DNA from: an uncultured Gammaproteobacteria bacterium | GTDB taxonomy: Bacteria; Pseudomonadota; Gammaproteobacteria; PS1; Pseudothioglobaceae | Assembly: GCA_937899995.1 (NCBI GenBank) | Contig: CALCCK010000006.1 | Location: 1 to 46,022 of the forward strand | Reading direction: 5' to 3' | Length of the DNA stretch: 46,022 nt | Part shown: positions 44,694 through 46,022 of the stretch, piece after piece | Numbering within the stretch: the stretch's first letter is position 1 | Layout of the letters: each line of letters begins with the position of its first letter | The notes under the pieces: model-generated | Databases searched by the model: none | Seen by the model: only the letters and a program-made list of their open reading frames with translations | What the model was told of the DNA's origin: nothing | Position numbers and translations under genes: made by a program

Positions 44694-45296
44694 CTAGTAA
44701 GCTGGCGCAGGGAAATTGTTACCTTTAGCTGGAGTGTAGCCTAGGTAGCCTTGTCTGCCATAACCTTCAAAACGACCCTGGCCTCGTGATTTACCATAAT
44801 TATCAATTTGACCTTTATAGTATTGATCAGCATTGCCTGCTGCATGGCTTTTACCTTGACCAGACATGCGATTTTGTAACTCACCAGCATACTTACCATC
44901 TGCTCTTGCATAGCCAGTACCTTTAGTTTTATTGTTGGTTTTAAAATAAAGACTTACATCAGTATCATTCACCCAATTATTAACTGTGCTCATTGGGCCC
45001 CAGTTAACATCTGAATCCATTGGCCCCCAGTTAGTCATGCCATCCATTGGGCCGAAATCTGATCCTGAGTTGAAAGGACCCCAGTTAGAGCCTGAATTAA
45101 ACGGCCCAAAATTATTACCGCCAGAGAAAGGATTGAAATTAGAGTTTGAATTACCACCCCATGGCATCCAAGATTCCATTAAATTATCACTACCATTATT
45201 ATTGCTATTGTTATCCCACGGCATCCATGGTGCTGCATTAGCAATGCTAGAAGTTAATAAGCTGATCGTAAGTATAAATTTTGTCATTTTTTTCAT
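44694..45296 (-). CDS. Exported sulfur-globule-like repeat protein
   Basis: This 200-residue protein has a signal peptide (MKKMTKFILTISLLTSSIANA). The mature N-terminal half is rich in Asn, Gly, Trp, Phe, Pro and Ser and built of 9-residue units of the form xGSNWGPFN (about residues 60-105). The C-terminal half is polar and Gly/Lys/Tyr-rich, with QGKSHAAGNADQYYKGQ and RGQGRFEGYGRQGYLGY. No cysteine is present in the mature part. Composition and arrangement recall the small envelope proteins of sulfur globules (CV1/CV2) in purple sulfur bacteria. The 9-residue unit is the same as in the next gene. Role is inference from composition. Confidence 0.7.
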   Translation of the reverse strand: MKKMTKFILTISLLTSSIANAAPWMPWDNNSNNNGSDNLMESWMPWGGNSNSNFNPFSGGNNFGPFNSGSNWGPFNSGSDFGPMDGMTNWGPMDSDVNWGPMSTVNNWVNDTDVSLYFKTNNKTKGTGYARADGKYAGELQNRMSGQGKSHAAGNADQYYKGQIDNYGKSRGQGRFEGYGRQGYLGYTPAKGNNFPAPAY

Positions 45297-45382
45297 TTTA
45301 TATTCCCCAAAATAAAAAATTGCTTGTGTGGATATTATACATTAATTATATTATGAATTTATAATATATTTTTAACAGACAA

Positions 45383-45411
45383 AAAAAAGAGGCGCTTGTG
45401 CACCTCTTTTT
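45383..45411 (-). terminator. Terminator after the second sulfur-globule-like gene
   Basis: AAAGAGG and CCTCTTT pair across CGCTTGTGCA, with an A-run on one side (45381-45388) and a T-run on the other. It can act on both strands, and on the minus strand it lies 24 bases past the stop at 45435. It separates the two repeat-protein genes into distinct transcripts. Confidence 0.75.
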
Positions 45412-45434
45412 ATTAACTAATTTTTAAAAATTAA

Positions 45435-46022
45435 TTATCTTGAAGCAGCAGCTGGTGCTGGTGCGTTACCATAGTAACGATTTCTGCTATCTGCAGCAAC
45501 GGCACCCATTGCATCTGCGTAGCCTTTAGCATAAGCATCAGCTTGACCTTTAGCGAAAGCATCAGCCTGACCTTTAGCATAAGCATCAGCAACACCTTTA
45601 GCGTTAGCATCAGCAACACCAGAAGCAGTACCATCAGCAGCACCAGAAGCGTTAGTATCAGTTGTGTTTTTAGTATCAAAGTTTAAACCGAAATCAGTAT
45701 TATTCATCCAGTTGTTACCACCTTTGAAAGGACCCCAGTTTTGAGCGCCTGTAAATGGACCAGCATTAGAACCACCGCCAAAAGGACCCATGTTATTACC
45801 ACCTGAGAAAGGACCCCAGTTAGAACCGCCATCAAAAGGACCCATGTTAGAACCGCCATCAAAAGGACCCCAGTTGTTACCACCACTGATTGGACCCCAG
45901 TTATTATTACCCCAACCGCTGTTATTATTACCCCAGCCGCTGTTATTACTATGCATAAACGCAGATGCAGAAGTTGCTGCAACTACGGTAGCGATTGCTA
46001 CTACTTGTGTTAATTTTTTCAT
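45435..46022 (-). CDS. Exported sulfur-globule-like protein with two repeat domains
   Basis: The ATG is the last three bases of the window, so the gene is complete but its promoter is not visible. The 195-residue protein starts with a signal (MKKLTQVVAIATVVAATSASA). Residues 26-46 are Asn/Gly/Trp-rich. Residues 47-100 are six exact-length 9-residue units GGxNxGPFx. Residues 132-171 are five 8-residue units xAKGxADA, likely helical. It ends NRYYGNAPAPAAASR. It has no cysteine. Known sulfur globule proteins share the Gly/Asn/Trp/Tyr-rich exported character, and a sulfur oxidiser would use such a coat for stored sulfur. Function is inferred and not demonstrated. Confidence 0.72.
   Translation of the reverse strand: MKKLTQVVAIATVVAATSASAFMHSNNSGWGNNNSGWGNNNWGPISGGNNWGPFDGGSNMGPFDGGSNWGPFSGGNNMGPFGGGSNAGPFTGAQNWGPFKGGNNWMNNTDFGLNFDTKNTTDTNASGAADGTASGVADANAKGVADAYAKGQADAFAKGQADAYAKGYADAMGAVAADSRNRYYGNAPAPAAASR
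45510..45629 (-). repeat. Five 24-bp tandem repeats encoding xAKGxADA
   Basis: Five in-frame 24-bp units encode TASGVADA, NAKGVADA, YAKGQADA, FAKGQADA and YAKGYADA. The central units are nearly identical in DNA, suggesting recent tandem duplication. Confidence 0.92.
45723..45884 (-). repeat. Six 27-bp tandem repeats encoding GGxNxGPFx
   Basis: Six in-frame 27-bp units encode the 9-residue period GG(N/S)N(W/M/A)GPF(D/S/G/T/K). Several units share the silent bases of the core GGACCC on the plus strand. They are coding repeats; there are no unique spacers as in a CRISPR array. Confidence 0.92.

Follow-up and report, generated by a model that had tools for sequence, protein, structure and literature searches.

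SUP05 bacteria fix carbon in the dark, both in oxygen-poor waters and in vent symbioses, and deposit sulfur as globules in the periplasm. A truncated Sox system, which lacks soxC, leaves sulfur for such storage. Described sulfur globule proteins, namely SgpA, SgpB, and SgpC of Allochromatium vinosum and proteins of the type covered by the Pfam family PF17228 (sulphur globule protein), are small, exported, repetitive, rich in glycine and aromatic residues, and present in multiple copies in sulfur-storing hosts. SgpD of A. vinosum is an exported, repetitive protein with predicted helical repeats that binds globules but is dispensable, and it is almost restricted to Chromatiaceae (PMC10386293). 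Ca. Thioglobus autotrophicus EF1 is reported to form sulfur globules in the periplasm and to have four putative sgp genes; three of its Sgp proteins were differentially expressed (PMC6509183).

Two genes, here called A and B, were analyzed at the end of the window, the whole stretch of 46,022 nucleotides, which is contig C6 of a 1.24 Mb, 78-contig genome of an uncultured gammaproteobacterium. Their products share with SgpA to SgpC and the PF17228-type proteins the general traits given above, export being predicted, but they differ from the PF17228 type in being built from WGPF 9-mers and AKGxADA octads; for A. vinosum SgpA to SgpC the comparison was one of descriptions. Compared likewise by description, SgpD resembles A and B, which are predicted to be exported, in export and repetitive make-up and differs in its near restriction to Chromatiaceae, whereas A and B occur in SUP05-type bacteria. 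The putative sgp genes of strain EF1, also compared by description, come from the same bacterial clade as A and B, and all four are likely candidate members of the A/B family.

Architecture of the two proteins and their locus

The first-pass annotation of this DNA had described two neighboring exported proteins with a common WGPF repeat, and both open reading frames were confirmed where it had placed them, on the minus strand. The features of the locus were as follows.

45435-46022, minus strand: gene A, ORF of 195 aa with a signal-peptide-like N-terminus; the main, multi-copy type of the family
45960-46022, minus strand: signal-peptide-like N-terminus of A, residues 1-21 (MKKLTQVVAIATVVAATSASA), with an A-x-A site read by eye
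45723-45911, minus strand: seven 9-residue WGPF-type units of A, residues 38-100 (sequence and self-match test)
45666-45722, minus strand: core of A, GGNNWMNNTDFGLNFDTKN, residues 101-119, common to B and the phage copies (alignments)
45507-45626, minus strand: five 8-residue units of A, ASGVADAN to AKGYADAM, residues 133-172 (sequence and self-match test), with a weak predicted helix at residues 147-176
45384-45411, minus strand: intrinsic terminator between A and B, 12 pairs and then a T run, kept in six relatives
45334-45339, minus strand: TATAAT of a putative promoter-like site ahead of B; relatives keep TGTATAAT
44694-45296, minus strand: gene B, ORF of 200 aa with a signal-peptide-like N-terminus; paralogue of A with orthologues in relatives
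44988-45149, minus strand: 9-residue units of B, five plus one degenerate, residues 50-103 (sequence and self-match test)
44925-44981, minus strand: core of B, NNWVNDTDVSLYFKTNNKT, residues 106-124 (alignment)
44730-44915, minus strand: tail of B, residues 128-189, a degenerate homologue of the A octads (alignment and period-8 test)

A and B were paralogues (39% identity, E 3e-29) with a common plan consisting of a putative Sec-type signal peptide, an array of WGPF 9-mers (seven GP-type units in A, five to six in B), an NNWxNxTD core, and a tail of 8-residue repeats. Export to the periplasm was predicted from the signal-peptide-like N-termini, read from the sequence by eye. Cysteine was absent from both mature proteins, and both contained glycine- and aromatic-rich low-complexity repeats, as do sulfur globule proteins as a functional class. 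The 9-residue arrays were beyond chance, with lag-9 self-matches at 36 of 54 positions in A and 24 of 53 in B, values reached in none of 20,000 shuffles; the same held for the lag-8 matches in the tail of A (31 of 47; 0 of 20,000 shuffles). Among the repeat units of A, 39 same-residue pairs used different codons. Because the units thus differ at synonymous codons too, the repeats do not reflect recent slippage.

The octads of A (in order ASGVADAN, AKGVADAY, AKGQADAF, AKGQADAY, and AKGYADAM) had been taken as a feature of one protein only. All five were present in A as described, but B was found to carry degenerate ones as well. The tail of B aligned with the A octads in the wider-family alignment, and a period-8 signal that was weak in B of the window (lag-8 p 0.04) was clear in B of three relatives (L005, L017, and L028; p ≤ 0.003). 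In B of Thioglobus loci the octad period was still visible, for example GYTKGNADAYYKGQLDGYGKARG in L017. A and B therefore represent the same architecture, with tails decayed to different degrees.

AlphaFold2 models of A and B were of low confidence (mean pLDDT 45.1 and 38.5, respectively), which fits disorder of the isolated proteins without proving it; in the model of A, helix was predicted only at residues 147-176, weakly and over the octads. A PDB sequence search returned nothing meaningful. A similarity to FliH in NCBIfam (19.1 bits against a cut-off of 180) was confined to the octads and was rejected as low-complexity similarity.

The presence of a terminator between the two genes, also noted in the first-pass annotation, was borne out: the window and six relatives have a strong hairpin with a T run there, and changes in the stem among the relatives keep the pairing. 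Since the conserved TGTATAAT comes next, B probably has its own promoter. In relatives, the order began with either a 742-aa gene, in our reading that of monomeric isocitrate dehydrogenase (icd), or a different ORF of about 416 aa; one to three A-type genes came next and then, in several genomes, B. The tandem arrangement after icd and the terminator before B were conserved. In the window, the locus adjoined a tRNA gene, and genes nearby were presumably pntAB. That A starts on the final base of the window reflects only the end of contig C6 at that point. The first 127 bases of contig C13, which runs on into icd, were the same as the end of C6 (window 45896-46022, G000:C13:1-127), so the two contigs probably meet there. 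Since the assembly breaks off precisely at the 5' end of A, there may be further, unresolved copies of this gene. A third, more distant paralogue, C (NWSPF units, SNWLTETDF core), was located at G000:C42:141-728 (L051) beside genes that we read as secG and tpiA. In the relative L003 an A-type gene follows paralogue C, and contig C42 ends where such a gene would begin. Shortened or decayed B-like frames were observed downstream of A genes at L032:9734-9994 (titled Ca. Ruthia) and L020:8724-9068, as if B were being lost in some lineages.

Distribution in bacteria and relation to known globule proteins

No Pfam family, including PF17228, matched A or B, and no NCBIfam model matched them over its cut-off. 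PF17228 was likewise without a match in the window's genome, whereas it was present in 62 of 369 genomes of the class. A profile-profile comparison (hhalign) of the A/B family with PF17228 aligned only 27 columns, those of the signal peptide. On these grounds A and B were filed as Sgp-like in working and not as PF17228 members. The combination of repeats had been considered new relative to described sulfur globule proteins; it was indeed absent from the PF17228 proteins inspected, and a literature text search for NWGPF found no paper. The inspected proteins nevertheless had the same order of parts as A and B, namely a signal peptide, W/G/N arrays, a short D-F-x-M-x-F-like segment, and a repetitive tail. 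Together with weak matches of the family alignment A4 (E ~6e-4) at PF17228-positive places in G334, this order would suit a reading of A and B as true, very divergent PF17228 members, a branch of one family and not a separate one. Given the lack of a PF17228 match, the alignment limited to the signal peptide, and the ability of convergence to yield similar composition, we regard common ancestry of this kind as somewhat unlikely. It would keep the sulfur-coat function and competes on ancestry only. The best reading is that A and B are lineage-specific and Sgp-like in working, and not demonstrably homologous to Sgp.

A scan of 84,980 species genomes identified 42 loci of the A/B family, titled SUP05, Thioglobus, Ruthia, Ruthturnera, Thiodubiliella, Bathymodiolus symbiont, or loosely named gammaproteobacterial MAGs. 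Within the window's own bacterial family, whose members with the genes include SUP05, Thioglobus, and vesicomyid and Bathymodiolus symbionts, the A/B family was present in 51 of 83 genomes. In the class sample outside that bacterial family, matches were found in 6 of 365 genomes, all of them weak (E 3.6e-5 or worse). These six, matches of A4 in G275, G300, G334, G370, G399, and G429, were inspected and rejected, being PF17228-type, of the type of the second family described below, merely glycine-rich, or in an unconvincing frame. In the data searched, the A/B family was thus confined to one bacterial family of sulfur oxidizers. Occurrence in non-sulfur bacteria had been named beforehand as evidence against a role in globules; only the weak matches were found among the 365 genomes, which were taken by class and not by known lifestyle.

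The window's own genome carried dsrA over the family cut-off. Across the 83 genomes, with split and contig-end fragments of dsrA scored as present, 48 had both the A/B family and dsrA and 29 had neither. Three genomes had dsrA only (G049, G051, and G061, two of them 86-87% complete and G051 with an estimated completeness of 100%), and three had the A/B family only (G015, G069, and G075). All but one of the 29 double absences (28) were from the single genus g5, so the association with dsrA amounts to roughly a single evolutionary contrast. G015 was the only g5 genome with the A/B family; it had neither dsrA nor a match to the second family, and its A-type gene lay on a 4,455-base contig (G015:C31; L069). 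This gene is probably contamination, or else a recent transfer. As to the further question of whether genomes with these genes also have dsr and sox, dsrA was thus found in 48 of the 51 family-positive genomes, and soxC was found over its cut-off in no genome of the bacterial family, which fits a truncated Sox system leaving sulfur to be stored.

A second family of small exported proteins (FNPYSFMEPRWFxxEAxNFVDEFDN; alignment A7) was present in 50 of the 83 genomes, none of them of genus g5, and its distribution was nearly the same as that of the A/B family. In the class sample outside the bacterial family, 26 genomes contained it, and 21 of these also had PF17228 (Fisher p 9e-14, uncorrected for relatedness). 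The second family thereby gives a separate route pointing to sulfur globules. It was also found on about 15 viral contigs, including some of the phages that carry the A/B family (L091 and L117). A supposed relative in L127 was discarded as a chance match inside an 894-codon ORF. The members located were as follows.

G000:C7:20758-22052 (L061): host genes, three in a row
G040:C1:471270-471617 (L062): host gene
L091:3263-3550, L117:5001-5297, and L121:4348-4668: viral members; further viral members in L122, L124, and L126

Copies on phage contigs

Members of the A/B family were identified on ten IMG/VR contigs (8 distinct sequences), and an eleventh viral member (L110) was truncated; cultured phages and plasmids yielded no match. 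The phage copies were putatively exported proteins of 107-137 aa with two to four WGPF units, a conserved core (NDTDFGFNFNTKNK), and zero to three octads. They lie among phage genes for head, tail, replication, and PhoH. In L100 the neighbors were a helicase, a UvsY-like gene, a tail tube gene, and a major head protein (E 4e-142), and on other viral contigs they included NAD-dependent DNA ligase, primase, DnaB-like helicase, PhoH, exonuclease, and protease. In the family tree, the phage copies clustered together within the A type (SH-aLRT 92). This fits one acquisition of an A-type gene by phages, provisionally, because the tree was built from short repetitive sequences.

DsrC was detected over its cut-off on four of the ten phage records, and a dsrC fragment lay at the end of a fifth; three of the four had identical flanks, and the dsrC-bearing records represent only two clearly independent viruses. 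TusA was encoded in two phage loci (L095 and L096), the latter of which also contained NifU-type, ferredoxin, and Fe-S assembly genes. Published accounts of SUP05 phages (PMC8190135, PMC4164917), as searched here, give dsrA, dsrC, and sox genes as sulfur auxiliary genes. The contigs found here were like them in having dsrC on some, and had tusA on two. In the same searches, all genes listed there were for enzymes or sulfur carriers, with no structural gene of a globule-like kind among them, and further literature searches found no globule-like gene reported in phages. An auxiliary gene of a structural, storage-coat kind is accordingly not reported in the literature searched.

In most viral loci the phage WGPF gene adjoined an exported gene of 275-293 aa that appeared porin-like by eye; the two of these that were tested had no Pfam match. 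Its positions were as follows.

L094:6441-7316, L096:6123-6998, L097:1398-2276, L098:6330-7211, and L099:6330-7157: porin-like exported gene
L092:4949-5824 and L095:4961-5830: porin-like exported gene, upstream of the phage WGPF gene

A conserved leader with an inverted repeat, AGAGG...CCTCT, preceded the phage WGPF genes of L091, L094, L097, L098, and L099 (e.g., agaggaaaggatcgacctct) and is possibly a terminator or regulatory hairpin. In addition, an ammonium transporter gene (L100:2628-3788; PF00909, E 1e-91) adjoined the phage WGPF gene of L100, and an exported cytochrome c-like gene (L099:10096-10413; PF00034, E 2.5e-7) was present on a viral contig with a WGPF gene.

We tentatively propose, as a reading that falls a little short of probable, that SUP05 phages encode their own sulfur-globule coat proteins, of two exported families and accompanied in some cases by DsrC or TusA, which would act on the solid sulfur store of the host. 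The shortened A-like versions would alter how the coat assembles, and with it how accessible the sulfur store is or how it grows; phage DsrC and TusA would meanwhile help to oxidize the sulfur. Control of coat assembly or of sulfur access, with DsrC and TusA feeding oxidation, seems the most plausible benefit to the phage. The predicted export and the shortening of the copies and their position next to the exported gene of about 290 aa would also be consistent with an action at the envelope unrelated to sulfur, such as superinfection exclusion or lysis control, through mimicry of an abundant periplasmic host protein; this we consider unlikely, since dsrC or tusA on some of the same contigs and the presence on phages of the second exported family, with its sulfur-like distribution, both favor a sulfur role.

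A proposed role in the sulfur-globule coat

That A and B might coat stored sulfur outside the cytoplasm was the central suggestion of the first-pass annotation, and its link to sulfur was strengthened by the distribution data and by the phage contigs shared with dsrC or tusA. We consider it quite probable that A and B, as paralogous structural proteins of the periplasm, make up or scaffold the sulfur-globule coat in SUP05-type bacteria. This reading draws on the confinement of the family to one family of sulfur oxidizers, its tracking of dsrA there, the absence of soxC, the phage copies with dsrC or tusA, the second exported family, and the globules of Ca. Thioglobus autotrophicus. Against it stand the missing PF17228 match, the hhalign alignment of the signal peptide only, a dsrA association close to one contrast, three genomes with dsrA only, and only two independent dsrC phages. 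Abundant cell-envelope or surface matrix proteins of an adhesive or S-layer-associated kind, whose link to dsrA would be one of shared ancestry, would suit the export signals, the Gly/Asn-rich repeats, the S-layer that SUP05 bacteria do have (PMC6509183), and an association resting mostly on one genus, but dsrC and tusA beside some phage copies, a similarly distributed second family that accompanies PF17228 elsewhere, and the lack of any surface-anchoring domain in the Pfam search make such a function without a direct sulfur role quite improbable.

As coat proteins, A and B would be exported by Sec and would assemble on elemental sulfur that arises in the periplasm. Their WGPF arrays, which are aromatic, Gly/Asn-rich, and probably disordered, may provide a multivalent layer in contact with both sulfur and further coat subunits. 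The octads have small residues every four positions, K-D pairs, and a weakly predicted helix; the octad tails may act as helical or amphipathic linkers that cross-link subunits, or else as the hydrophilic outer face. The main subunit would be A, with B as a variant produced at another level.

The globule coat of SUP05 bacteria has so far been recorded only under the label "putative sgp", and the A/B family gives candidates for proteomics. Its profile makes such genes searchable and accounts for their being missed by the standard sulfur globule model. In the hosts alone, the family would be a lineage-specific form of a known kind of protein; its presence on phages, in some cases with sulfur genes, raises the interest, suggesting that viral action may extend beyond the sulfur-burning enzymes to the sulfur store itself.
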